From Nocardioides plantarum (GTDB lineage Bacteria > Actinomycetota > Actinomycetes > Propionibacteriales > Nocardioidaceae), in assembly GCF_006346395.1 (NCBI RefSeq), contig NZ_VDMS01000001.1:806001-870000 (forward strand): a DNA stretch of 64,000 bases. The letters are read 5' to 3'. Under the pieces are notes generated by a model. That model ran no database searches and was not told the origin of the DNA. It saw only the letters and a program-made list of their open reading frames with translations. Both the position numbers and the translations under genes were made by a program. Of the stretch, positions 1-11,368 are shown piece after piece. How positions within the stretch are numbered: position 1 is the stretch's first letter; each line of letters starts with the position of its first letter.

Positions 1-913
1 GACCGGTCTTGCGGCACGCGGTGTCGTCCGACGTCGGCGGCGACGCGGGCTGCTGGCAGCTGATCCCGGCGATCGGGATGACCACGATCGAGCAGGCGAC
101 CTTGTTGTTGCAGCCCAGGGACTCGTTCTCCACGTCGCTGCGCAGCTCGTAGTTGACCGAGCCGTCGCCGTTCGCGTCGGTGAACGCGGCGATCTCGGCC
201 GGCGGGAACGCCGAGTCGACCGCCGCCTCGGGTGGCATCGTGGTCGAGCTGCACGCGTCGAAGACGGTGCCGGCGCGGGTGACGAACGGCGTCAGCGCGG
301 TGCTGTACGACGGCACGTCGAGCGTCGGGCACTCCTTGGGCTTGACGCCCTCGGTGCCGGTGACGGCCTGCTTGTCGGCGTCGGTCGCGTAGACGTCGCG
401 GCGCCAGAGCGCCTCACCCTGCGAGCGCAGGATCTGGGAGCGCTGGGCGACCGAGGCGGTCCAGCAGGTCTCGGGTCGCAGTCGCTGCGCGGCGGGCACG
501 CCGGCACCGTCGCGACCGCGGCACTGCATGACGACGACGGGGTACTCCTGGGTCAGGCCCTTCTCGCCGTAGGGGTTGCTGGCGCGGCCACCGCTGGGCT
601 GCGCCCCGCTCCAGGAGATCCGGATGCGCTGGCGACCGCGCAGGTTCGTGGTCTGGTCGGCCTTGACCGTGACCCGGTAGTCGGACACGGTCTCCTTCGC
701 GCCGTCGGCGTCGACGAAGGTGCGGGTGACCTCCTTGGTCGCCGAGAAGCCGTCGGGGGCCTTGGCGGCGCGGGCGGGCGGCGTCGCGGCGGTGCCGCTG
801 GTCGGGAAGGCCAGGCCGATCAGCACCACGGCGAGGGCGGCGGCCAGTCCAGCCCAACGGCGCGGGCTGTGCCGGGTGTGCCGGGTGCGCCGGGTGCGGT
901 CGGGCGCGCTCAT
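1..913 (-). CDS. Secreted protein of unknown function downstream of pstS, cut by left edge
   Basis: The frame opens at ATG 913-911 and runs off the left edge without a stop, so the C-terminus is missing. The start overlaps the pstS stop by one base (TGATG), which fixes it. The N-terminus has an Arg-rich stretch (MSAPDRTRRTRHTRH) and a hydrophobic segment ending near SGTA, a signal peptide. The visible mature part is polar with scattered cysteines (VMQCRGRD, ETCW, DACSS, GCNNKVAC), as expected for a disulfide-containing exported protein. I do not recognise the family. Its tight coupling to pstC-pstA-pstS suggests a surface or periplasm-side role in phosphate acquisition, but that is inference from context only. 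Confidence 0.75.
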   Translation of the reverse strand, partial: MSAPDRTRRTRHTRHSPRRWAGLAAALAVVLIGLAFPTSGTAATPPARAAKAPDGFSATKEVTRTFVDADGAKETVSDYRVTVKADQTTNLRGRQRIRISWSGAQPSGGRASNPYGEKGLTQEYPVVVMQCRGRDGAGVPAAQRLRPETCWTASVAQRSQILRSQGEALWRRDVYATDADKQAVTGTEGVKPKECPTLDVPSYSTALTPFVTRAGTVFDACSSTTMPPEAAVDSAFPPAEIAAFTDANGDGSVNYELRSDVENESLGCNNKVACSIVVIPIAGISCQQPASPPTSDDTACRKTG

Positions 914-2607
914 CAGCGGCCACCGCGGCGACGGGCCCGGGCGGTGATCAGCCCGGGCAGCAGCACGAGCGCCGCGAGGAGCAGTACCGCGGCGTAGGCG
1001 AAGGTCTTGGAGTCGAGCGGGCGGTCGTCGACCGTCGTGGCGTTGGCGTAGACGGCCTCGTCACCGGCTCCGGGCACCTCGGACCCCGGCACCGCCTCGC
1101 CAGCTCCGGGCACCTCGGCCCCGGGGACGTTGCTGGTGCCGGGCGGCGGGCTCGCCGTACCTCCTGGGTCGGTCGTGCCGCCGGGGTCGGCCGTCGCCGA
1201 GGGATCGGGACCGCCCGTGGGGTCGGCGCCGCCCGTCGGGGCGGTCGGGTCGGACTTGCCGCCGCCGTTGGGGTTGTTCTTGCCGGTGTCGGAGCCGCAC
1301 GGCGCCGAGGTGGCCTTGTCGCAGGCGGGCGGGAAGGGCGCCTTCTCGGCCAGCACGTTCTTGCTGGGGTTCTTGCCGTCGAACGTCGGGTTGTTGCAGC
1401 TCTTGACGTCGCGGTTGGTGAGGTTGACCTTGGGGTCGGCCTTCTTGAGCTCGGCGATCTGCTGGAACCCGGCGGTCACCAGGTTGACCGGCAGCGGCGA
1501 GTAGCCGAAGGGCCCGGCCTTGGTCTGTCCGGCGCACAGCGAGTAGTAGACGAAGTCGGCGATCGACTGGCGCTTGGCGGTCGTCATCCGCTTGTCGTCC
1601 TTGGCCGTCGGGATGATCATGTAGGAGTACGACGAGATCGGGTAGGCCCGCGGGTCGGGGTTGCTGTAGACGCCGTCGAGGATCTGCGTGAGGTACTTCG
1701 TCGGGTCGGACTTGTTGTTGTTGATCTTGGCCCGCGTCAGCGCCACCGCGGTGTTGTACTGCGTCGGCTCGACGTAGTAGCCGCCCTTGTTGAGCACCTT
1801 GACGACGGGGTAGCCCTTGTCGAGCGGGTAGGAGTACTCGACGTAGCCGATCGAGCCGTCGCCGGCGAAGCCCGACACGGTGTTCATCACCTGGTCCGAG
1901 CCCGACTGCGCGATCATCGTCTGCCCCTTCTTGGGGTAGTACGACGTGAGGCCCGCACGGCCCGAGAACGAGCGCCAGATCGACGGGTAGGCCTTGTCGA
2001 GCCAGGCCGTGAACTGCGCCGTCGTGCCCGAGCCGTCGGAGCGCACGACCGGCACGATCTTCTTGTCGGGGAAGGTGCGTCCGCCGTTGTCCTTGGTGAT
2101 CGCCGGGTCGCTCCAGCTGGTGATCTTGTTGGTGAAGATCTTGGCCAGGGTCTCGCCCGACAGCCGGAGGTTCTTGACCAGCTTGTTGCCGACCTTGAGC
2201 TGGTAGGTGAACGCCGTGCCGCCGGCGACCAGGGGCAGGTAGCGGTAGTCGCGACCGTTGCTGGTGTCGGCCTGGCCCTTCTCGTCCGAGCCCTGGTAGG
2301 GGATCTCGGAGATGGCGAAGTCGGTGGTGTTCTGGGCGAAGTCCTTGCGGCCCTTGGACGAACCGCCGCCGGTGTAGACGACCTTGATGCCGTTGGCGTC
2401 GACGTCGGAGATCCACTGCTTGACGATCAGCTCGGACCAGGTCGACCCGGTCCCCTCGATCGTGGCGTACGCCGCCCGCTGGGTCGGCGCTGCGGGGCTC
2501 TTCTCGTCGGCGGTCGCCGGGGCTCCTGTCGCGGCGGCGAGGGCGGCGACGGCGAGCGCCAGGACGGCGGCGACGAGGCGGGTGCGGCGGACGGGGCGGG
2601 TGGTCAT
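913..2607 (-). CDS. pstS: Phosphate-binding protein PstS, membrane-anchored long form
   Basis: Substrate-binding component of the high-affinity phosphate ABC transporter, 564 aa. A signal peptide (MTTRPVRRTRLVAAVLALAV) leads into a PstS fold with the phosphate-contact motifs GTGSTW near the N-terminus, TGGGSSKGRKDF, and RSDGSGTT in the middle. The family is usually about 350-400 aa. The excess is a C-terminal Gly/Pro/Asp/Thr-rich linker (NPNGGGKSDPTAPTGG) and one transmembrane helix (FAYAAVLLLAALVLLPGLI) with an Arg-rich tail, so the protein is tethered by its C-terminus rather than by a lipobox cysteine. The start overlaps the pstA stop (ATGA). Gene order C-A-S with pstS last is unusual; pstB is not visible here. 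Confidence 0.93.
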   Translation of the reverse strand: MTTRPVRRTRLVAAVLALAVAALAAATGAPATADEKSPAAPTQRAAYATIEGTGSTWSELIVKQWISDVDANGIKVVYTGGGSSKGRKDFAQNTTDFAISEIPYQGSDEKGQADTSNGRDYRYLPLVAGGTAFTYQLKVGNKLVKNLRLSGETLAKIFTNKITSWSDPAITKDNGGRTFPDKKIVPVVRSDGSGTTAQFTAWLDKAYPSIWRSFSGRAGLTSYYPKKGQTMIAQSGSDQVMNTVSGFAGDGSIGYVEYSYPLDKGYPVVKVLNKGGYYVEPTQYNTAVALTRAKINNNKSDPTKYLTQILDGVYSNPDPRAYPISSYSYMIIPTAKDDKRMTTAKRQSIADFVYYSLCAGQTKAGPFGYSPLPVNLVTAGFQQIAELKKADPKVNLTNRDVKSCNNPTFDGKNPSKNVLAEKAPFPPACDKATSAPCGSDTGKNNPNGGGKSDPTAPTGGADPTGGPDPSATADPGGTTDPGGTASPPPGTSNVPGAEVPGAGEAVPGSEVPGAGDEAVYANATTVDDRPLDSKTFAYAAVLLLAALVLLPGLITARARRRGGR

Positions 2608-3776
2608 GAGTCTGCTCTCCGGGTACGGCGTGAGGTGGTCTTGCGCGGGCGGGCCAGGAGCCGGGCCACGACGAAGAGGACGAGGACGAGGAGCAGCAGC
2701 ACGAGGGCGGCTCCGTAGGCGCGCTGGATGGCGACGTCGGCACCGCTGCGGACGTTGCCGTAGATGAACAGGGGCAGGGAGTTCATCGCGCCGTCGAACG
2801 GGTTGGCCTTGGTGAAGTCGGCCGCGCCGCTGGTCAGCAGCACCGGGCTGGTCTCGCCGATGCCGCGGGCGACACCCAGGATCAGGGCGGTGGCCAGGCC
2901 CGGGCGCGCCGTCGGCAGCACGACGTGCCACACGGTGCGCCACCGGCTGGCCCCGAGCGCCAGGCTCGCCTCGCGCAGCCCGCCGGGCACGACGCGCAGG
3001 ACGACGTCGGCGGCGCGGGCGATGATCGGCAGCATCATCACCGACAGGGCGAGCGCGGCCGCGAACCCCGACTTGGGCTGGCCGAGGGCGATGACCCAGA
3101 CGGTGTAGATGAACAGGCCGGCGACGATCGACGGCAGGGCGGTCATCGCCTCGACCAGCGTGCGGACGACCCGGGCGAACCTCCCCCCGACCTCGGTCAT
3201 GAAGACCGCGGTGCCGACCCCGAGCGGGAGCGTGATGGCCACGGCGATGCTGATCTCGATCAGCGAGCCGACGATGGCGTGGCGGATGCCGCCCTCGTCG
3301 AAGGGGTCCTTGGGGCCGACCCCGGACATGTCGTCGAACCAGAAGTTGAGGTTGAGCACGGGCTTGTAGCCCTTCACCGCGACGTAGACGACGACCGCGA
3401 CGAGCGACGCGCCCACGAACAGCGCGCAGCCGGTGATGACCGAGGCGGCGACCCGGTCCTTGACGTCGACCCGGGTGCCGGTGGCCGCCGTGGAGACCGC
3501 GGTCACCGCGACGCCGCAGACGAACCACATGATCAGGAACCACGGCACGCCCGGCATCGCCAGCAGCCGCTGGGTGATCACCCAGGCCAGTCCGAACCCG
3601 GCGAACCAGGAGCCCGCGCGCACGAAGAGCTCGTCTGGCGACATCCTGCCCAGGGACGCGCGCGGCACCGGGGGCGCCGCGTCGGCGTCGTACGACGGGA
3701 GGAAGGTCCTGACGCCCTGCGGGTCGGCAGGGGTGCCGGGCAGTCCGGCGTCGGGGCGCTTGTCGAGGGTCGTCAT
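2604..3776 (-). CDS. pstA: Phosphate ABC transporter permease PstA
   Basis: Inner-membrane permease subunit of the phosphate importer, 390 aa. About 90 residues of cytoplasmic N-terminal extension (MTTLDKRPDAGLPGTPADPQ) with two extra hydrophobic segments precede the usual six-helix core. The EAA loop that docks on the ATPase is seen as GGLREASLALGASRWRTVWHVVLP, followed by ARGIGETSPVLLT, typical of PstA. It forms a heterodimer with PstC. The ATG at 3776 overlaps the pstC stop and its own stop overlaps the pstS start, so translation is probably coupled through all three genes. The extended N-terminus makes it longer than the usual roughly 300 aa. Confidence 0.93.
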   Translation of the reverse strand: MTTLDKRPDAGLPGTPADPQGVRTFLPSYDADAAPPVPRASLGRMSPDELFVRAGSWFAGFGLAWVITQRLLAMPGVPWFLIMWFVCGVAVTAVSTAATGTRVDVKDRVAASVITGCALFVGASLVAVVVYVAVKGYKPVLNLNFWFDDMSGVGPKDPFDEGGIRHAIVGSLIEISIAVAITLPLGVGTAVFMTEVGGRFARVVRTLVEAMTALPSIVAGLFIYTVWVIALGQPKSGFAAALALSVMMLPIIARAADVVLRVVPGGLREASLALGASRWRTVWHVVLPTARPGLATALILGVARGIGETSPVLLTSGAADFTKANPFDGAMNSLPLFIYGNVRSGADVAIQRAYGAALVLLLLVLVLFVVARLLARPRKTTSRRTRRADS

Positions 3777-4798
3777 CAGTCGGTGTCCGCCCCGGAGCGG
3801 CTGCGGTTGACCACGATCGCGGCCATCGTGTTGATGCCGAGCGTGATCAGGAACAGCACGAGACCGGCGGCGAGCAGGGCCGAGAGCTGGGTGCTCGTGG
3901 CGTCACCGAAGCGGTTGGCGATCAGCGAGCTGATCGTGCTGCCGCCCTTCTCGGTCAGGCTGGCCTTGATCTCGAAGGACGGCGAGAGGATCAGGGCGAC
4001 GGCGATGGTCTCGCCGAGGGCCCGGCCCATCGCGAGCATCGTCCCGCCGATGATGCCGCCGCGACCGAAGGGCAGCACGACGGTGCGCACCATCCCCCAG
4101 GTGGAGGCGCCGAGCGCGAGCGCGGCCTCCTTCTCCCCCGGCGGGGTCTGCGAGAACACCTGGCGCATCACGGCGCAGGCCATCGGCATCACCATCATCG
4201 ACACCGCGATGCCGGCGACGAAGGCGCTGAAGCCGTACTGGCTCAGGGCCGGCAGCGGTGAGTCGGCCTCGCCGCCGGGGACCGAGAAGATGGGCAGCCA
4301 ACCGAGGTTGCGGTCGAACCAGATCGACAGGTCGGCGGCGTGCGGCATGATCAGCAGGAAGACGAACAGCCCGTAGATGATCGACGGCACCGCGGCCATC
4401 AGGTCGACCATCGAGACCAGGGTGGCCTTGAGCTTCACCGGCGCGTACTCGCTGATGTAGAGCGCGGTGGCCAGGGCCAGCGGGAACGCGATCACCATGG
4501 CGACCAGGGCGACCTGGAAGGTGCCGACCAGCACCGCGGCGATGCCGATGGTGTCGGTGTCGGGCGACCACTGCTGCTCGGTGAAGAAGCCGAAGCCGTA
4601 GCGCTTGAAGGTCGGGATCGCCTGGTAGCCCAGGAACAGCCCGACGCCGCCGGTGATGACGAGCACCGAGGCGCCGACCACCCGCGCGCTGTTCGCGAAG
4701 ACCGCGTCGGCGCCGGTGCTGCGTCGCGAGATCGGACGCGCCTTGACGTCGACCTCGTCCGGCTGTGGCCGGTCGAGGTCGGAGAGAGTGGTGGTCAC
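3776..4798 (-). CDS. pstC: Phosphate ABC transporter permease PstC
   Basis: Permease partner of PstA, 340 aa, first visible gene of the pst operon. After a polar N-terminus, six transmembrane segments follow with the PstC-type periplasmic loop (FTEQQWSPDTDTIG) and the EAA loop GEKEAALALGASTWGMVRTVVLPFG, then AMGRALGETIAVAL. About 230 bp separate it from the next gene upstream, on the same strand, so the promoter should lie in 4799-5026. I looked for Pho boxes there and found only one weak half-like match, so PhoP control is plausible from the family but not shown by the sequence. Confidence 0.94.
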   Translation of the reverse strand: MTTTLSDLDRPQPDEVDVKARPISRRSTGADAVFANSARVVGASVLVITGGVGLFLGYQAIPTFKRYGFGFFTEQQWSPDTDTIGIAAVLVGTFQVALVAMVIAFPLALATALYISEYAPVKLKATLVSMVDLMAAVPSIIYGLFVFLLIMPHAADLSIWFDRNLGWLPIFSVPGGEADSPLPALSQYGFSAFVAGIAVSMMVMPMACAVMRQVFSQTPPGEKEAALALGASTWGMVRTVVLPFGRGGIIGGTMLAMGRALGETIAVALILSPSFEIKASLTEKGGSTISSLIANRFGDATSTQLSALLAAGLVLFLITLGINTMAAIVVNRSRSGADTD

Positions 4799-5026: not shown

Positions 5027-5869
5027 TCAGGCGGTGGTCTGGACCACCACGGCACGGCGCGAGGCACGACGCAACGTCGTCAGCACCGCCGGACCCAGGA
5101 CGACCACCGCGACCGCGGTGGTGATCGCGCGGCCGGTGTCGAAGCTGCCGGTCGAGGTGATCAGCGTGTAGGCCGCGAACGTGCGCAGGTTGTGCAGCGG
5201 TCCGGCCGTCGGGTCGAAGGTCAGGTCACCGCTGGCACCGGGCACGGCGACGCCGAGCAGGAACGGCCAGCCGGACAGGTTCATCAGCGCCCCGAACAGG
5301 TAGGCCGCCACGACGCCGTACGCCGCCAGCAGGGCGATCTCCCAGCGGCCGCTGATCGCCCGTCCGAAGGCACGGCGCGGCAGCAGGCCGGCGCCCAGGC
5401 CGACCCAGGCGGCGCACAGCATCTGGAAGGGCAGCCACGGCCCGACCCCGGCCGTCATCAGCGCCGAGGCGAACAGCGACGTCACGCCCAGCACGAAGCC
5501 GAAGCCGGCACCGAAGACCCGCCCGGCGAGGATCAGCAGGAAGAACACCAGCTCGACGCCCGCCGTACCGGCCGAGACCACGCGCATCAGCGCGTTGGCG
5601 GCCGAGAGCACCCCGAGGATCGCGAGCACCCGCGCGTCCATGCCGCCCTCGCTCATCTCGGCGACCACGACCGCGATCACCACGGGCAGCAGCAGGAGGA
5701 AGAGGAACGGCGGGTCGATGCGCGAGACGCCGTCGTCGACGCGCACCAGCAGCGGCCAGCAGAGCGTCATCAGGCCGAGCAGGGACGCGACGGCGAGCGT
5801 CGCCCGCGAGCGCGGGCTGAGCGGGATCGCCCGGGTGTCGAGGGCCGGCGTGCTCGTGGGGGCGCTCAC
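5027..5869 (-). CDS. ECF transporter substrate-capture (S) component, probable cobalamin
   Basis: Integral membrane S component of an energy-coupling-factor importer, 280 aa, last gene of the riboswitch-led operon. About six hydrophobic segments are visible, with the conserved-looking stretch AGRVFGAGFGFVLGVTSLFASAL and VGPWLPFQMLCAAWVGLGAGLLP typical of actinobacterial ECF S proteins. The GTG start (5869) overlaps the stop of the ATPase gene as GTGA. S components determine substrate specificity. Here specificity is inferred from the upstream cobalamin riboswitch and from the intrinsic-factor-like exported partners, not from any residue in this protein. A different corrinoid or another cofactor remains possible. 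Confidence 0.82.
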   Translation of the reverse strand: MSAPTSTPALDTRAIPLSPRSRATLAVASLLGLMTLCWPLLVRVDDGVSRIDPPFLFLLLLPVVIAVVVAEMSEGGMDARVLAILGVLSAANALMRVVSAGTAGVELVFFLLILAGRVFGAGFGFVLGVTSLFASALMTAGVGPWLPFQMLCAAWVGLGAGLLPRRAFGRAISGRWEIALLAAYGVVAAYLFGALMNLSGWPFLLGVAVPGASGDLTFDPTAGPLHNLRTFAAYTLITSTGSFDTGRAITTAVAVVVLGPAVLTTLRRASRRAVVVQTTA

Positions 5870-7440
5870 GGCGCCACCACCTCGTCGACGCGCAGCCAGG
5901 GGGCGCCGAGCACCTTCATCACCTGGGGCGCGAACGCCGGCGACTCGGCCACGACCCGCCGGGTGGGTCCCGCGGAGACGACCTCGCCCTCGGCGAGCAC
6001 GACCACCTCGTCGGCGACCGTCGCCACGAACTCGACGTCGTGGGTGGCGACGAGCACGGCGTGGCCCTCAGCGGCCAGGTCGCGCAGGATGGCGGCGAGG
6101 GCGGCCTTGGCGTTGTAGTCGAGGCCGCGGGTGGGCTCGTCGAGGAGCACGACCCGCGGGGCCGGTGCGAGCACCAGGGCCAGGGCCAGCGCGAGCCGTT
6201 GTCCCTCGGACAGGTCGCGCGGATGGGTGGTGTCGTCGATGCCGGGCACCAGGCGGTCGAGGATGGTCCGGGTGCCCGGGCCGCCGGCGGCACACTCGTC
6301 GGCGACGGTCTCGAGGTAGAGCAGGTCGGAGGCGGTCTGCGGCAGGAGCGCCACCCGGCCCCGGCGACCGGCCGGGTCGAGAGCCGCGGTGTCGTCGCCG
6401 CCGAGGTCGACCGCGCCCGTACGGCGCTTGCGCGACCCCTGCAGGGCCCACAGCAGCGTGGACTTGCCGGCGCCGTTGCGTCCCATCAACGCGGTCACCC
6501 GACCGGCGTGCAGGGTGACGTCGACCTCGCGCAGGGCGACGGTGCTGCCGTGCACGACCCCGAGCCCCGCGGCGCGGAGGAGCGGCTCGTCGTGCAGGGG
6601 CGCCGCCACCGGCAGGGCGGGCAACGCCAGGCCGCGCGCCGCGCGCCGGGCGTCACGGACGGTCAGCGGGAGCGGCGTCCAGCCGGCCCGGCGCCCCAGC
6701 TCGACGATGGGGGGTACGACGGGCGAGCGGCCGAGCAGGTCGGCGGGCTCCCCCACCTCGCAGGTGCCGTCGCCCCGCATCAGCACCATCCGGTCGGCGA
6801 AGGGCACCACGCGCTCGAGGCGGTGCTCGGCCAGCAGCACGCTGACACCCACGTCGTGCACGAGCCGGGTCAGCGTCGCCAGGACGTCCTCGGCGGCGGT
6901 CGGGTCGAGCGCCGAGGTGGGCTCGTCGAGCACCAGCAGCCGCGGGTGCATGGTGAGGACCGACCCGATCGCGACCCGCTGCTGCTCGCCCCCGGAGAGC
7001 GTGTGGAGGTCGCGGTCACGCAGGTGCGCGATGCCGAGCAGGTCGAGGGTCTCCTCGACGCGGCGCCGCATCGTCTCGCCGGGCAGTCCCAGCTGCTCCA
7101 TGCCGTAGGCCAGCTCGTCCTCGGCGGTGTCGGTCACGAACGCCGCGGCCGGGTCCTGACCGACGTAGCCGATCGCGTGCGCGCGCTCGCGGGGCGGGGC
7201 GTCGATGATGCTGACGCCGTCGAGCAGCACGTCGCCGCTCAGCACTCCCCCGCTGAACCGAGGCACCAGCCCGGTGACGACGCCGAGCAGGGTCGACTTG
7301 CCGACGCCGGTCGGGCCCGAGACGAGCACCAGCTCGCCCTCCTCGATCGTGAGGTCGACGGCGTCGAGGACCGCGGTCTCGTCGTAGGCCAGGGTGACCC
7401 GGCGCAGGTCGAGCAGCGGGGTGGTCGTCGGGGTGGTCAT
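5866..7440 (-). CDS. ECF transporter ATPase, fused A-A' domains
   Basis: Energy-coupling ATPase with both nucleotide-binding domains in one 524-aa chain. Domain 1 has Walker A SGPTGVGKST (residues 41-50), signature LSGGEQQ (148-154) and Walker B LLVLDEPTSALD. Domain 2 has Walker A MGRNGAGKST (319-328), signature LSEGQ (410-414) and Walker B VVLLDEPTRGLD. In many ECF systems these are two genes (ecfA1, ecfA2); the fusion is common in Actinobacteria. The ATG overlaps the ecfT stop (ATGA), and its stop overlaps the S gene. It powers import by toppling the S component through the T protein. Confidence 0.93.
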   Translation of the reverse strand: MTTPTTTPLLDLRRVTLAYDETAVLDAVDLTIEEGELVLVSGPTGVGKSTLLGVVTGLVPRFSGGVLSGDVLLDGVSIIDAPPRERAHAIGYVGQDPAAAFVTDTAEDELAYGMEQLGLPGETMRRRVEETLDLLGIAHLRDRDLHTLSGGEQQRVAIGSVLTMHPRLLVLDEPTSALDPTAAEDVLATLTRLVHDVGVSVLLAEHRLERVVPFADRMVLMRGDGTCEVGEPADLLGRSPVVPPIVELGRRAGWTPLPLTVRDARRAARGLALPALPVAAPLHDEPLLRAAGLGVVHGSTVALREVDVTLHAGRVTALMGRNGAGKSTLLWALQGSRKRRTGAVDLGGDDTAALDPAGRRGRVALLPQTASDLLYLETVADECAAGGPGTRTILDRLVPGIDDTTHPRDLSEGQRLALALALVLAPAPRVVLLDEPTRGLDYNAKAALAAILRDLAAEGHAVLVATHDVEFVATVADEVVVLAEGEVVSAGPTRRVVAESPAFAPQVMKVLGAPWLRVDEVVAP

Positions 7441-8540
7441 CGGGGCGTCCCGGCGACGCGCGGAGGTGGGGTGACGGCGACGGCGGCCAGGCCGAGCAGC
7501 CCGACGAGGAGCGCCAGGACGCTGACCTCCGGGACCGTGGTGACCGCCGGGTAGGCGATCCCCACCTCGTGCTGGTTGAGCCACCAGCCCAGCCCGCCGA
7601 CGACGAGGCCGACGACGACCACGGCCAGCTCGGCGGCGCGCCACCGGTCGGGGCGGTAGCGGGTGCGCTGCACCCGGCGTCCGGCGTTGACCAGCCCGGC
7701 GACCGCGACGAGCGTGCCGACCACGAGCATCGGCCCGGCCAGCAGCCGGGGGGCGGTCTGGTCGAGCAGGGCGTAGACGCCGACCACGACGCCGCAGAGC
7801 CCGGCGAGCACGAGGGCCCCCGTCGTACGCCGCTCGGCGGCGGTCGCCGTGCCCGCGCGGCCGTAGCCGCGGGTGTCCATGCCGGCGGCCAGGGCCAGCG
7901 AGCGGTCGAAGGTGTCCTCGAGCACGGGCACCAGGAGGCGCCGCAGCCGCTTGACCCGGCCGGTGTCGCCGGCGCGCAGGGCCTGGGCGGCGCGGACCCG
8001 CTGGAAGCTCAGCGTGAGCTGGGGCAGCACGGTCACCGCGACGACCAGCGCGGTGCCGATCTCGTAGAGCGCCGGCGGCAGGCTGCGCAGCAGGCGCTTG
8101 GGGTTGGCCAGCGAGTTGGCGGCGCCGACGCAGATCACCAGCGTGGCCAGGCGCAGGCCGTCGTACAGCCCGGAGACCAGCGCCTCCCGCGTGACCGGCC
8201 CGAGCAGCGTGACGCCCAGCACGAAGTCGGGCAGCGGTACCTCGGGCAGGTCGAGCACCACCTCGCCCGGGTAGCCGCCGCCCAGGACGACGCGCCACAG
8301 CACCCGCAGCACGATCGCCGCGACGCCGAGCCAGACGTAGAAGCGGAACGAGCGCGCCCACGGGTGGTCGGTGCGCCGTGCGGTCACCACGACCGCCACG
8401 ACACCCACGATCATCAGCAGGAGCAGGGGGTTGGTCGTCAACGACGCCGCAGTCGCGAGACCGATCGCCCACAGCCACCAGGCGACGGGGTGCAGGTCCC
8501 GCGGCAGGTGACCGGGCAGGTGACCGGGCAGGACGCTCAT
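7437..8540 (-). CDS. ECF transporter transmembrane (T) component
   Basis: EcfT/CbiQ-family scaffold protein, 367 aa, linking the ATPase to the S component. Hydrophobic segments occur at the N-terminus (ATAASLTTNPLLLLMIVGVVAVVV), the middle and the C-terminus. The diagnostic cytoplasmic region with the Ala-Arg-Gly coupling motif is present: ALRAGDTGRVKRLRRLLVPVLEDTFDRSLALAAGMDTRGYGR. The family is usually 250-270 aa; this one has an extra C-terminal hydrophobic region of about 100 aa. The start is ATG 8540, only 7 bp after the stop of the anchored DUF4430-like gene. It is located inside the B12-riboswitch operon, which makes this a dedicated ECF module rather than one shared by many S proteins. 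Confidence 0.9.
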   Translation of the reverse strand: MSVLPGHLPGHLPRDLHPVAWWLWAIGLATAASLTTNPLLLLMIVGVVAVVVTARRTDHPWARSFRFYVWLGVAAIVLRVLWRVVLGGGYPGEVVLDLPEVPLPDFVLGVTLLGPVTREALVSGLYDGLRLATLVICVGAANSLANPKRLLRSLPPALYEIGTALVVAVTVLPQLTLSFQRVRAAQALRAGDTGRVKRLRRLLVPVLEDTFDRSLALAAGMDTRGYGRAGTATAAERRTTGALVLAGLCGVVVGVYALLDQTAPRLLAGPMLVVGTLVAVAGLVNAGRRVQRTRYRPDRWRAAELAVVVVGLVVGGLGWWLNQHEVGIAYPAVTTVPEVSVLALLVGLLGLAAVAVTPPPRVAGTPR

Positions 8541-8547
8541 CGCGCCG

Positions 8548-9471
8548 TCACGGGGCCGTCCGCCGCCGTTGGAGGAGCAGGAACCCCCCGGCGAGTCCGA
8601 AGAGCAGCACGATCATCAGCGGCGCGAGCCACCCGGGCAGGCCGCCGTCGTCGCCGTCGGTGTCGGCCGAGGTCGGCGCGACCGGGTCGGCGAGGTCGGT
8701 CACGGCGTCGGTGGGCGTGGCTCCCGGCGTGGGTGCCTCGGGGTCGGTCGGCGTGGGGGTGCCGGTCGGCGTCCCGGTCGGGGTGCCGCTCGGCGTGCTG
8801 GGCTGCGAGGTGGACGCGCTCGACGGTGCGCCCGGGCCGGCCGTGGACGGCGTGGCCGGGGCGCCCGACGGCGGCGTGCTCGGGTCCGGCTGCCGGGTGG
8901 GCTGGCTCGAGGGCGAGGCCGGCTGCTTCGTCGGCTGCTGGGTCGGCTGAGCGCTGGGCGACGAGCTCGGGCTCGGCGCGGGACTCGTCGGGGCCGCGTG
9001 CGCTGCCGGCGTGTACGACGGGAGCTCGCTGCCCGGGACCTGGTCCCAGGCGAACGCGACGTAGCCGCCGTCGGGCACCTTCAGCGACCCGGCCCCGAGA
9101 CTGGAGTAGGTCCACAGGCCCTTGCTGGACGGCTTGCCGTCGGACCACCACAGGCCCCAGTAGCGGTCGCTGTCGGGCGGTGTGCAGCCGGCCGGCCTGC
9201 CGCTGACCTGGCAGACGTAGCCGGGGTTGCCGGGCGCGTTGGCGTTGAGCGGGAACCCCGCCGCCGCGAACAGCGATGACGCGGTGTCGCCACCGCCCCC
9301 GGTGACGCATGCGCCCTGCACGGCACCGCCGAGCTCGTTGGGGTCGACGACGACCGTGACGCCGGTGCGGCCGGTGCACCCCGCGGCCTGGGCGGGTGCG
9401 GCGGGCAGCCCGACCCAGGCCGCCGCGACCAGGAGCATCGCGACGACCGGGCGGGCGGCCCGTCGGGTCAC
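8548..9471 (-). CDS. Surface-anchored DUF4430-like (transcobalamin beta-domain-like) protein
   Basis: Exported 307-aa protein. It has a signal peptide (MTRRAARPVVAMLLVAAAWVGLPAAPAQAA), then a compact domain of about 125 residues that looks like DUF4430, the beta domain found at the C-terminus of intrinsic factor and transcobalamin: GDTASSLFAAAGFPL, YVCQVSGRPAGC, DSDRYWGLWWSDG, and KVPDGGYVAFAWDQ near the end. A long Ser/Pro/Thr-rich stalk with a PTGT-type repeat follows, then one transmembrane helix and an RRR tail (WLAPLMIVLLFGLAGGFLLLQRRRTAP). So the domain is displayed outside the membrane on a stalk. The GTG start overlaps the toroid-gene stop (GTGA). A role as the lid of a B12 binder next to the ECF pump is inference. 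Confidence 0.78.
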   Translation of the reverse strand: MTRRAARPVVAMLLVAAAWVGLPAAPAQAAGCTGRTGVTVVVDPNELGGAVQGACVTGGGGDTASSLFAAAGFPLNANAPGNPGYVCQVSGRPAGCTPPDSDRYWGLWWSDGKPSSKGLWTYSSLGAGSLKVPDGGYVAFAWDQVPGSELPSYTPAAHAAPTSPAPSPSSSPSAQPTQQPTKQPASPSSQPTRQPDPSTPPSGAPATPSTAGPGAPSSASTSQPSTPSGTPTGTPTGTPTPTDPEAPTPGATPTDAVTDLADPVAPTSADTDGDDGGLPGWLAPLMIVLLFGLAGGFLLLQRRRTAP

Positions 9472-11129
9472 TTGACGACCGTGAACTTCGCCGAGGCCTT
9501 GCGGTCGGCGAACTGCCCGACGACGGTGACGGTCTTGGTACCGGTGATCGTCGAGGCCTTGAACGTCACGTTGAAGACGCCCTTGGCGTCGGCGACGCCC
9601 GACTTGGTCGTCGCGCCGGAGCGCACGGAGACCTTCTCGCCCACGGCGAGGCCGGTGACGATGGCCCGCTGGGTGGCGCCGCGGGAGACCTTGGCGCGGA
9701 CCCGGAGGCCGAGCGTCTTGGCGCCCAGCGACTTGACGACCGCGGTCGCCGGCGAGCCGTCGACCCCGGTGAAGGTGAACGTCGTCGTCGCGGTCTTGGC
9801 CGGGGCCTTGACGGAGAACGCGACGCTGCCCGTGATCGAGCTGTACTTCTGGACCTTGCCGGTGCTCAGGCAGACCGCGGAGCCGGGGGTCGCGCCGGTG
9901 ACCCGGACGGTGCTGGTCGAGCCGTCGGCGACGTACGTCGTGGGGCCGGCCGCCTCGAGGACGGTCGGGTCGGTGGGTGCCGACAGCAGGCCCTCGGCGG
10001 ACTGGGCGGTGGCCTTGATGAACTGGCCCTCGCTGGCGGTGGTGATGCCGTCGGTCACCGCGTCGTCACGGGCGGCGTCGTCGAAGGCGACGGCCCCGAG
10101 CTCGGCGGCGGCGTACGGCGTGCAGGAGCCGACGTTGTCGAGCTGGTGGGCGCGCAGCCAGGCGGCACCCTTGACCGCCAGCGGCGTCGCGTAGTGGTCG
10201 AACGTCGGGTTGACCGTCGCGAGCTGGCGCAGCGCGGCGGTGGCCAGGCCGGTGCTGTTGGCGTTGGGCGCGCCACCGGTCGTCGTGCCGAAGCCGCCGT
10301 TGCCGCGCTGGGCGTTCTGCAGGAAGCCGACCGCCTTGGTGAGCACGTACGCCGCGCCGCCGCCGCTCGAGTCGTCGGTGTAGAGCGGGACGAAGGCGCT
10401 CACGGCGAGCGCGGTCGCGTCGACCGACGCGGCCGCGGGGTCGGCGCAGGCCGCGCTGGGGACGACGAAGTCCTGGGTGAAGGAGCCCGTGTCGGCGCAC
10501 TGCTGCTGCGCCAGGTAGGCGGCGGCGGCCGGTGCCTTGCTGCTCCCGGCCGTGCTCAGCGCCGTCACGGCGAAGGACTGGCCGAAGTTGTTGGCGAAGT
10601 CGCCCTCGGGGTAGGCGGCGCCACCGCGGGTGACCTGGTCGGCGATCCGGCCCTCGGCGGACACGAGGCCCTCGAGGCGGGTGACGAGGTTGCCGTCGGG
10701 GTGCGTGGTCGGGTCGAGCCCGGCGGTCTGCAGGCCGACGATCGCCTTCGCCGTACCGCCGGCGGAGCGGCCCTCGACGAGGGGACCCGGGGTCGGGGGG
10801 TTCGTCGAGTAGTCGTCGTCGTTGTACTGGTAGTCGGTGTAGTCGCTCAGCCGCGAGGAGATCGCGTTGCCGATCGCGTCGACGTCGGCCGAGTGGCCGC
10901 CGATCGTGGCGAGCGCGACCTCGGCGTCGATGCTGCCGCCGAAGTCGGTGTAGGGGCCGAAGTTGTCGTAGCTCAGCAGCCCGCCGTCGAGCTGGCTGGA
11001 CAGGTAGGCGGCGGCGTCGTCGGCCTGCGCCTGGCCGCGCTGCGGCGCCGGGGCGGCCTGCGCCGGGAGTGCTCCGAGGACGAGGGCCGGGACCGCGACG
11101 AGCGCGCCGGCACGGAGGAGACGTGACAT
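9468..11129 (-). CDS. Secreted alpha/alpha-toroid (prenyltransferase-like) protein, intrinsic-factor-like
   Basis: First gene of the riboswitch operon, 553 aa from ATG 11129, chosen because GGAAGGAA lies just upstream; an in-frame start 24 nt earlier would put extra residues before the signal peptide. A signal peptide (MSRLLRAGALVAVPALVLGALPAQAAPAP) leads to about 330 residues of repeated helical-hairpin sequence with Gly-rich turns (GGSIDAEVALATIGG, NNFGQSFAVTALSTAG, NAQRGNGGFGTTTGGAPNANSTGLATAALRQL), the pattern of squalene-cyclase/prenyltransferase toroids. Mammalian intrinsic factor has the same fold. The catalytic DxDD-type acid cluster of cyclases is not evident. The last roughly 190 residues are beta-rich and Ig-like (TTTFTFTGVDG, KTVTVVGQF). 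There is no anchor, so it is secreted or held by its partner. Confidence 0.8.
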   Translation of the reverse strand: MSRLLRAGALVAVPALVLGALPAQAAPAPQRGQAQADDAAAYLSSQLDGGLLSYDNFGPYTDFGGSIDAEVALATIGGHSADVDAIGNAISSRLSDYTDYQYNDDDYSTNPPTPGPLVEGRSAGGTAKAIVGLQTAGLDPTTHPDGNLVTRLEGLVSAEGRIADQVTRGGAAYPEGDFANNFGQSFAVTALSTAGSSKAPAAAAYLAQQQCADTGSFTQDFVVPSAACADPAAASVDATALAVSAFVPLYTDDSSGGGAAYVLTKAVGFLQNAQRGNGGFGTTTGGAPNANSTGLATAALRQLATVNPTFDHYATPLAVKGAAWLRAHQLDNVGSCTPYAAAELGAVAFDDAARDDAVTDGITTASEGQFIKATAQSAEGLLSAPTDPTVLEAAGPTTYVADGSTSTVRVTGATPGSAVCLSTGKVQKYSSITGSVAFSVKAPAKTATTTFTFTGVDGSPATAVVKSLGAKTLGLRVRAKVSRGATQRAIVTGLAVGEKVSVRSGATTKSGVADAKGVFNVTFKASTITGTKTVTVVGQFADRKASAKFTVVK

Positions 11130-11133
11130 GGGG

Positions 11134-11157
11134 TTCCTTCCCGCTGCACACAACGGG
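11134..11157 (-). promoter_or_regulatory. Leader hairpin beside the Shine-Dalgarno of the B12 operon
   Basis: On the minus strand CCCGTTG-TGTG-CAGCGGG (plus 11140-11157) can form a 7-bp stem with one G-U pair. It ends directly against the ribosome site GGAAGGAA. There is no U-run, so control at translation initiation rather than by a terminator fits best, as is common for actinobacterial cobalamin riboswitches. The exact switch partner is not determined. Confidence 0.4.
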
Positions 11158-11204
11158 AGTCCCAGGGGGCCACCCGCTGCTTTTCCGCGACAGCGATGGT
11201 GAGG

Positions 11205-11368
11205 ACGCGTCGCGTTGGGTGCTCCGGCTCGCGGCCGCCGTCCCTGGTTGCTGGACGGGCGGACACCTACGGTTGCGGGTCAGCGCCGGACTTCGACCGG
11301 CTTCCCCCGCCACGGGCGTGATGAATGATTCGCCGGAGCGTAACCCGACCCGATGGCACCCGGTTAGT
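11205..11368 (-). ncRNA. Cobalamin (B12) riboswitch
   Basis: Read on the minus strand. A 5' strand GGGTGCC (plus 11355-11361) can pair with CACCC in the B12-box region. The catalogue core follows: GGGGAAGCCGGT, then CGAAGTCCGGCGCTGACCCG and CAACCGT (plus 11269-11307), matching the family core GGGAA...GGTGAAATCC...GCTGACCCGCAACCGT. A B12-box-like segment GAGCCGGAGCACCC lies at plus 11216-11235. Order and spacing agree with adenosyl- or aquo-cobalamin riboswitches. It sits about 75 nt upstream of the toroid-gene start, so it should reduce expression of the whole operon when B12 is abundant. Confidence 0.9.

Follow-up and report, generated by a model that had tools for sequence, protein, structure and literature searches.

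We identified an operon in Nocardioides plantarum that is probably a corrinoid (vitamin B12) salvage system, in which an ECF importer would work together with an exported, transcobalamin-like receptor that is here split between two proteins. The operon lies on the minus strand of the window, the whole stretch of 64,000 nucleotides that was analysed (contig NZ_VDMS01000001.1, positions 806,001 to 870,000), and all features described below are on that strand. It comprises, in order, genes for a toroid protein, a stalked beta-domain protein and the ECF components T, A-A' and S, with a cobalamin riboswitch ahead of them. This gene set and its riboswitch had been described in an earlier note on this DNA, and that description is confirmed as a whole; its remark that almost all of the genes overlap is true of three of the four junctions, which have 4-base overlaps, while the beta-T junction is a 7-base gap. 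Consensus scans found neither a promoter nor a terminator.

The riboswitch (11197..11357) matches the RF00174 cobalamin aptamer over the full model (1-189), with 30.7 bits and an E-value of 7.9e-6 in a 901-base stretch. This score is just below the Rfam gathering score of 31.5, and a default scan of the window therefore reports nothing, although the position of the match is conserved among relatives of the operon and the riboswitch claimed earlier is upheld. Relatives were collected as three sets of loci that overlap partly (L153 and L037, for example, appear to be on the same contig). The toroid was matched in 48 genomes, of which 45, the window genome included, were kept once three tail-only matches had been dropped; a second, tail-only place in G070 was also dropped. 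The beta profile matched 50 further genomes of the phylum, and 40 were taken as phylum loci. The S profile was built from loci found with the toroid or beta protein and is a reverse test that is not fully independent; the best 80 of its 539 loci were kept, 68 of which had enough upstream sequence. Riboswitch places near the loci were chosen by eye and counted if they lay on the strand of the locus and upstream of it by at most 900 or at most 1500 bases. By this count, RF00174 matches precede 40 of the 56 toroid genes, which belong to 38 of the 45 genomes (the window genome among the 38), and 31 of the 40 phylum loci, with 20 of the former and 18 of the latter exceeding the Rfam cut-off; no match was seen at the loci of 7/45 genomes and at 9/40 phylum loci. 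In genomes with exactly one riboswitch match, this match is at the operon in 21 of 24 cases, against about 0.007 expected by chance placement. RNA folding near the start codon of the window operon does not exceed that of shuffled sequences (z -0.04), so no switching element is claimed in the leader.

The stalked protein (8548..9471) begins with a signal peptide, assigned by eye, and contains a 127-residue beta domain of the transcobalamin type (9007..9387), which was modelled with a pLDDT of 90.7. When compared with known structures, this model of the window's own domain scored Z 9.5-10.6 to 14 entries for transcobalamin, haptocorrin or intrinsic factor and to one protein from Ruminococcus, with bovine transcobalamin at 10.6 and the next row at 5.1. 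Foldseek with the same domain gave a best E-value of 6.6e-3 and none at 0.001 or better. The structural matches include PDB 5np4, titled as a beta domain bound to cyanocobalamin, and PDB 3u7z, titled as a putative metal binding protein. Fold comparison alone gave this link: the beta profile matched neither transcobalamin nor DUF4430 among PDB sequences, its hhalign comparison with transcobalamin was negative (probability 0.2%), and the toroid and beta proteins of the window matched neither of the two in Pfam, NCBIfam or PDB sequences. The protein had been called DUF4430-like in the earlier note, and here the fold stands and the family does not, as Pfam DUF4430 (PF14478) has no match in the window protein and matched one of 50 members of the beta alignment, at 0.075. 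Beyond the beta domain follow a low-complexity, Ser/Pro/Thr-rich stalk (8632..9006, limits by eye; 112 residues counted, 83% Pro/Ser/Thr/Gly/Ala) and a hydrophobic C-terminal segment (8572..8631, limits by eye; best 17-residue mean hydropathy 2.46) with RRR after it, and these are the features from which a lid tethered by a C-terminal helix had been proposed.

The toroid protein (9468..11129) consists of a signal peptide, again assigned by eye, an alpha/alpha toroid-family domain (9987..11051) and a C-terminal tail of about 170 residues. The window sequence by itself gives a hint of the family (Pfam Prenyltrans, 0.049), whereas a profile of 52 rows, the first being the window domain, matches squalene-hopene cyclase at 2.7e-22; no B12 carrier is among the best 60 of its 71 matches to PDB sequences. 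In a modelled relative (L074), in which toroid and beta domains are fused, the toroid has the alpha/alpha toroid fold with a pLDDT of about 97, and from this relative the window protein is predicted to have the same fold. The highest Z scores for the toroid of L074 are those to terpene cyclases and GH76, and there is no B12 carrier among the 50 rows listed, which is not evidence of absence. Comparison of the toroid profile with transcobalamin by hhalign gave a weak link (probability 2.6-26%).

Q158, D211 and N265 (numbered from the start of the domain stretch) are invariant in the 52 rows, and N263 is found in 51 of them. The weak hhalign alignment places D211 with Asp176, N263 with Asn224 and N265 with Tyr226 of transcobalamin, of which Asp176 and Asn224 are B12 contacts. 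Class II terpene cyclases of the squalene-hopene cyclase type have DxDD as their catalytic motif; this motif surrounds the invariant Asp in none of the 52 rows and occurs as a string elsewhere in the toroid in 14. The motifs VDxT and NxNST cannot be taken to prove a B12 site, since squalene-hopene cyclase aligns to VDxT and partly to NxNST.

We found 15 reading frames in which a toroid and a beta domain are joined, nine in toroid-beta and six in beta-toroid order (two, in L064 and L193, appear to come from one genome). For the fused L074 model, Foldseek ranks transcobalamin first, with a match that spans both domains (E 9.6e-7), and a terpene synthase next at a nearly equal E-value (2.6e-6). 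The model has both folds, and with an rmsd of 22-24 angstrom and a TM of 0.34-0.46 to the carriers it does not have their closed arrangement; its linker is of low confidence (pLDDT about 57). An initial alignment in which fused proteins were placed together with toroid and beta rows was discarded, as the beta rows fell onto the toroid.

The two exported genes recur with ECF genes and B12 riboswitches across the phylum, and this conservation supports the interpretation in the earlier note. Relatives of all five proteins occur together at 42 of 45 loci in the genomes found with the toroid, at 30 of the 40 phylum loci and at 58 of the 68 that the S profile yielded. A beta protein without a detected toroid was seen at 7/40 phylum loci, one of which (L121) is at a contig end, and at 6/68 S-profile loci, and neither protein at 4/68. 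The loci with beta and no detected toroid include L128 and L130, where lipoprotein-like beta proteins lie beside one-piece ECF proteins, and in four loci with beta and ECF genes a B12-binding frame of methionine-synthase size is found about 4-7 kb away. Among the frames counted without deduplication (175 beta, 161 toroid), tails of at least 120 residues are present in 91/161 toroid frames and LxxTG in 28/161, and the toroid frames of L073 and L132 carry SLH repeats.

Loci with beta and no detected toroid, such as L128 and L130, the tails, LxxTG motifs and SLH repeats, and the nearness of the toroid to terpene cyclases and GH76 mannanases speak for a rival reading, in which the beta protein alone would bind B12 and the toroid would serve in wall attachment, as a scaffold, in glycan binding or as an enzyme, with no clamp being formed. 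We regard this as somewhat unlikely, as fusions occur in both orders, the toroid is linked to the other genes at most of the S-profile loci, the cyclase motif is missing around the invariant Asp, and the invariant residues include D211, which, like N263, aligns weakly with a transcobalamin position named above. A receptor of two cooperating parts is the reading that we prefer.

The remaining genes encode the importer. T (7437..8540) belongs to the CbiQ family (PF02361, 1.2e-12). A-A' (5866..7440) is a double ATPase within a single protein, with two ABC_tran stretches (2.7e-50); its best NCBIfam match is ECF_ATPase_2 at 5.8e-78, under the cut-off of that family. S (5027..5869) matches PF12822 (ECF_trnsprt) at 3.8e-6, with 27.5 bits against a cut-off of 30.7, and the same family is matched at 0.001 by 36 of the 41 members of the S alignment. 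Pfam agrees with the ECF genes proposed earlier, with S below the cut-off, and T, two ATPase domains and S, by which an ECF system is recognized, are present in a single operon of the window. Members of the S alignment also have weak matches to the folate (12/41) and riboflavin (17/41) S families. The 41-protein profile matched no ECF chain among solved structures. Deduced from its context alone, the substrate of S would be a corrinoid.

CbiMNQO cobalt importers are riboswitch-controlled systems, and the operon could in principle import cobalt for corrin synthesis in a similar manner, with the exported proteins binding metal or metal complexes. The CbiQ family of T and the title of 3u7z would fit such a role, as would the window genome, which has CbiC and, beside its other riboswitches, CobN and sub-cut-off CobG and CobS. 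We nevertheless consider it very improbable: S matches ECF_trnsprt, with no CbiM family among its Pfam matches at E-values up to 1, and the beta domain shares its fold with B12 carriers. Moreover, of 80 genomes that have either the whole operon or its beta and ECF genes, 51 are without CbiC (42 of the 71 well-assembled ones), while B12-binding domains are present in all 80. These 80 were taken from 85 genomes, leaving out G047 and G051 (no full operon) and G254, G182 and G346 (no T, A or S seen). As many genomes with the operon lack CbiC and yet have B12-binding domains, a corrinoid is favoured over cobalt as the cargo.

The cargo may also be a corrinoid precursor or another part of a cobamide, such as cobinamide or a lower-ligand base, instead of complete B12. 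S is not recognizably CbrT, and ECF-CbrT itself transports both cobalamin and cobinamide (PMC5997447). We found no feature that favours a precursor, and many genomes without CbiC have a single cobalamin riboswitch match, which heads the operon; this option is decidedly unlikely in our view.

For a salvage system that takes up corrinoids, the following course can be proposed. Low intracellular cobalamin would permit expression of the operon through the riboswitch, as expected from its known class. The beta-domain protein would be exported and stay at the membrane, tethered through its flexible stalk and C-terminal helix; the toroid protein, also exported, would either be set free or remain at the wall. 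Of the two, the protein with the transcobalamin-type beta domain is more likely to be the first to bind the corrinoid, and the toroid would most likely complete the binding site in the manner of the alpha domain of intrinsic factor and transcobalamin. The loaded receptor would hand the corrinoid to S, and T and A-A' would drive its transport across the membrane. The earlier interpretation, a split receptor of the intrinsic factor type coupled to an ECF importer, is in this way partly supported. Control by B12, coupling to ECF genes, two exported proteins with carrier-type folds, tethering signals, conservation and fusions in both orders speak for it, and the lack of a closed arrangement in the fused model, the nearest structural neighbours of the toroid and the loci with beta and no toroid speak against. 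Whether Actinomycetota have a corrinoid receptor at their surface that follows the plan of the animal carriers, with a toroid and a beta domain, split or fused either way, that close around the corrinoid and load an ECF importer, is to us an evenly balanced question; the animal carriers may descend from this design or converge on it.

The vertebrate carriers (intrinsic factor, transcobalamin and haptocorrin; PDB 2pmv, 2bb5, 2bb6, 4kki) resemble the system at the level of the fold, through the beta domain of the window, and the nine fused bacterial frames noted above share their toroid-then-beta order. They are single chains used with an endocytic receptor, whereas the window has two genes, an anchored beta protein and an ECF pump. 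ECF-CbrT of Lactobacillus delbrueckii, which imports cobalamin, shares with the window system the set of S, T and two ATPases, and cobalamin import is established there and predicted here; the text available (PMC5997447) names no exported accessory and nowhere uses the word lipoprotein, and the S, T and A-A' genes of the window are in one operon. A table for lactobacilli lists an "Additional lipoprotein component of putative cobalamin ECF transporter" and also a DUF4430 protein, which the excerpt does not state to be the same (PMC9963975). This lipoprotein is likewise exported and annotated as an accessory of a cobalamin ECF system; the entry is a label alone, and the excerpt mentions no toroid partner. 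Because this label already exists (PMC9963975), the idea of an exported accessory to a cobalamin ECF transporter, one part of the proposal in the earlier note, is not wholly new. In acI freshwater Actinobacteria, ECF modules behind cobalamin riboswitches have been proposed as cobalamin transporters in genomes without B12 synthesis; they are riboswitch-led like the window operon, and exported binders are unmentioned in the passages available (PMC5301498). Surface lipoproteins of Bacteroides capture B12 ahead of a transporter, a comparable exported capture in a different, Gram-negative setting, as far as the available text describes it (PMC6143338). Among the literature titles searched, none pointed to a bacterial receptor of toroid plus beta domain, which is not meant as a claim that none has been published.

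In the usual description of ECF importers, the vitamin is caught by the membrane component S (PMC5997447), and a conserved exported receptor ahead of the importer would, if true, change that picture for much of the phylum. It would also help to account for B12 scavenging by actinobacteria that depend on the vitamin and do not synthesize corrin. Intrinsic factor and transcobalamin would have in it a prokaryotic relative or mimic whose halves can be separated, so that the clamp mechanism and the origin of the animal carriers become testable. A function would further be suggested for SCO2321_fam (NF053823) and SCO2322_fam (NF040672), gene-named families for which the listing states no function and whose link to cobalamin ECF systems is drawn here. 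Both are matched below cut-off by toroid and beta proteins of the system. In the window, the toroid matches SCO2321_fam at 2.7e-13, with 49.6 bits where the cut-off is 300, and the beta protein has no NCBIfam match to either family. SCO2321 is also named in a paper on peptide delivery.

The operon reads from 11357 to 5027 on the minus strand and consists of a riboswitch and five genes. The cobalamin riboswitch, which starts at 11357 (minus strand), is a full-model match of 30.7 bits (E 7.9e-6), and because this lies below the gathering score of 31.5, a default scan misses it. It is followed on the same strand by the toroid gene (11129-9468), which encodes a secreted protein, and by the beta gene (9471-8548), whose product has a signal peptide, a small domain, a Pro/Ser/Thr-rich stalk, a hydrophobic tail and a final RRR. 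The remaining three genes, also on the minus strand, encode a T component of the CbiQ family, a double ATPase (A-A') and, by a sub-threshold match, an ECF S component. Three gene junctions have a 4-base overlap and one has a 7-base gap. The layout described in the earlier note, with almost all genes overlapping, was therefore confirmed, with a riboswitch of sub-gathering score. By eye, genes resembling those of a phosphate transporter (PstS, PstC and PstA) lie after the operon at 913-4798 (minus strand), and the PstS-like frame likewise has a hydrophobic stretch with basic residues at its end.

The earlier description of the beta protein as DUF4430-like held for its fold and not for its Pfam assignment: a Pfam search with the window protein returned no match, and DUF4430 was found in one of the 50 members of the beta alignment (E 0.075). 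A model of the window beta domain built with these 50 rows has a mean pLDDT of 90.7. Its best 14 PDB chains in Foldseek are transcobalamin and haptocorrin, followed by the Ruminococcus protein 3u7z, at modest E-values (best 6.6e-3). VIA-align gave Z scores from 10.6 for bovine transcobalamin (96 residues, 2.9 angstrom) down to 9.5 for intrinsic factor, with the next unrelated row at 5.1. All 50 rows share three invariant Cys and two invariant Trp. The proposed C-terminal membrane tether was likewise upheld as a sequence prediction. A transmembrane tail with basic residues after it was counted in 142 of 175 beta frames (duplicates included); in the 126 of these where it could be measured (not deduplicated), the stalk has a median of 108 residues, 75% of them Pro/Ser/Thr/Gly/Ala.

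By sequence, the toroid protein resembles terpene cyclases. Its profile hits squalene-hopene cyclase at 2.7e-22, and B12 carriers are absent from the best 60 of the 71 PDB sequences that it matched. None of the 52 toroid rows carries the cyclase motif DxDD around the invariant Asp. Numbered from the start of the toroid-family domain (9987-11051, minus strand), Q158, D211 and N265 are invariant, and N263 is Asn in 51/52 rows. Hhalign places D211, N263 and N265 opposite Asp176, Asn224 and Tyr226 of human transcobalamin (2bb5 numbering), of which Asp176 and Asn224 contact cobalamin. The hhalign probability is 2.6% for the window toroid and 26% for the fused alignment, in which Asn224 is opposite a Ser. 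Because these probabilities are low and squalene-hopene cyclase also aligns to the toroid VDxT motif, the possible correspondence is a lead rather than proof. Anchors differ among toroid relatives, with SLH repeats in L073 and L132, CWB2 repeats in L113, and LxxTG close to the end in 28 of 161 toroid frames (not deduplicated).

Toroid and beta domains occur in one protein in 15 frames, a count that includes L064 and L193, apparently one genome. Nine have the toroid-beta order, which is that of the animal carriers, and six the reverse; next to T, A and S, L133 and L151 show no toroid or beta protein other than the fused one. L118 (6897-9779) encodes one toroid and two consecutive beta domains. 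One fused protein, that of L074, a member of the window's genus, was modelled, with pLDDT of ~97 for the toroid, ~75 for beta and ~57 for the linker. The toroid fold claimed in the earlier note was recovered in this relative. Foldseek ranked bovine and rat transcobalamin first (E ~1e-6, spanning both domains) and a terpene synthase seventh (E 2.6e-6), and a toroid-dominated VIA-align placed terpene cyclases and GH76 on top (Z 22.4). Superposed on the carriers, the model deviates by an rmsd of 22-24 angstrom, so both folds are present but the closed arrangement is not predicted.

The toroid protein was matched in 48 of 147 genomes of the order, the window's own counted; three with tail-only matches were excluded, and the other 44 yielded 45 loci in addition to that of the window. 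Relatives of all five proteins were found by phmmer in 42 of these loci, and in a 43rd (L064) the beta domain is joined to the toroid. Rfam riboswitch matches (E up to 0.001 per genome) lie upstream of 40/56 toroid genes in 38/45 genomes, 20 of the 40 exceeding the gathering score. Across the phylum, the beta profile matched 52 of 346 genomes. Among 40 of these loci, 30 carry the full set of toroid, beta, T, A and S, three have toroid and beta only, and in seven no toroid was detected, one of which (L121) begins at a contig end. A riboswitch match precedes the matched domain by 120-700 bases in 31 of the 40 (18 above the gathering score). Exactly one match occurs in 24 of the 40 genomes, and it is at this operon in 21, against a chance placement expectation of ~0.007. 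In the reverse test, named genomes were gathered with the S profile, and the best 80 of 539 matches, which were kept, include organisms of the genera Nocardioides, Streptomyces, Amycolatopsis, Actinomadura, Micromonospora, Tessaracoccus and Kytococcus. Upstream sequence of 6.5 kb or more was available for 68 of their loci: 58 contain the complete set, six lack the toroid and four lack both toroid and beta. The expected co-occurrence of both genes with ECF genes and B12 riboswitches was borne out.

Among 80 genomes that carry the operon or its beta-plus-ECF part, CbiC, a marker of corrin-ring synthesis, is present in 29 and absent from 51 (29 and 42 in the well-assembled subset of 71), and all 80 have a B12-binding domain. 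Cobalt would therefore hardly serve corrin synthesis in those 51. The window genome has CbiC, and four other riboswitch matches in one region with CobN and with CobG and CobS, both below their cut-offs, so the operon there would serve salvage. In L128-L131, the beta protein adjoins one ECF protein, 1013-1196 codons long, that matches the T, A and S profiles together (L128 5617-8862, L129 6037-9075, L130 5342-8929, L131 5608-8661); no toroid, riboswitch or CbiC was detected. A B12-binding frame of 1213-1251 codons, by its size probably methionine synthase, lies ~4-7 kb from the beta protein.

We infer that the beta domain, on its long stalk tether, would catch a corrinoid outside the membrane, that the toroid would complete the site, and that the corrinoid would pass to S and be pumped inward by T and A-A'. 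That some loci have beta and lack the toroid points to beta as the core binder, with the toroid as an added half; the crystallisation of an isolated transcobalamin beta domain with cyanocobalamin, as given in the title of PDB 5np4, agrees with this. The evidence speaks well for a system that imports corrinoids by way of an exported, carrier-like part, predicted to bind them; toroid and beta domain may clamp the corrinoid between them.

ECF-CbrT carries cobalamin and cobinamide inward, with no accessory protein named in the excerpted text (PMC5997447). In a lactobacillus paper, one table entry reads "Additional lipoprotein component of putative cobalamin ECF transporter", and the text places a DUF4430 protein next to an rtpR gene (PMC9963975). 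Riboswitch-led ECF modules have been put forward as cobalamin transporters in acI genomes (PMC5301498), and a survey describes finding transporters for B12 and its precursors in gut genomes as an open problem (PMC6593275). Toroid and beta proteins, including those of Streptomyces loci, give sub-cut-off matches to the NCBIfam families SCO2321_fam and SCO2322_fam. With no claim of priority, the present analysis adds to these the fold of the beta domain, its toroid partner, the fused forms and a coupling to this ECF family that extends across the phylum.

Several loci depart from the window's arrangement. L041 (5906-5985), L042 (5676-5755), L055 (6358-6493) and L059 (6355-6490) have a second cobalamin riboswitch match, placed after the beta gene and before T, so the pump may be switched separately from the receptor. 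Two consecutive toroid genes with a riboswitch match between them occur in L048, L053, L054, L058, L060, L065, L066 and L070, where no match was found before the upstream toroid. L042 (1408-2715), L044 (9051-10661), L049 (8821-10425), L050 (10144-10881), L055 (9157-10755) and L059 (9156-10754) each have a second, divergent beta-domain frame, located at the S gene or beyond it.
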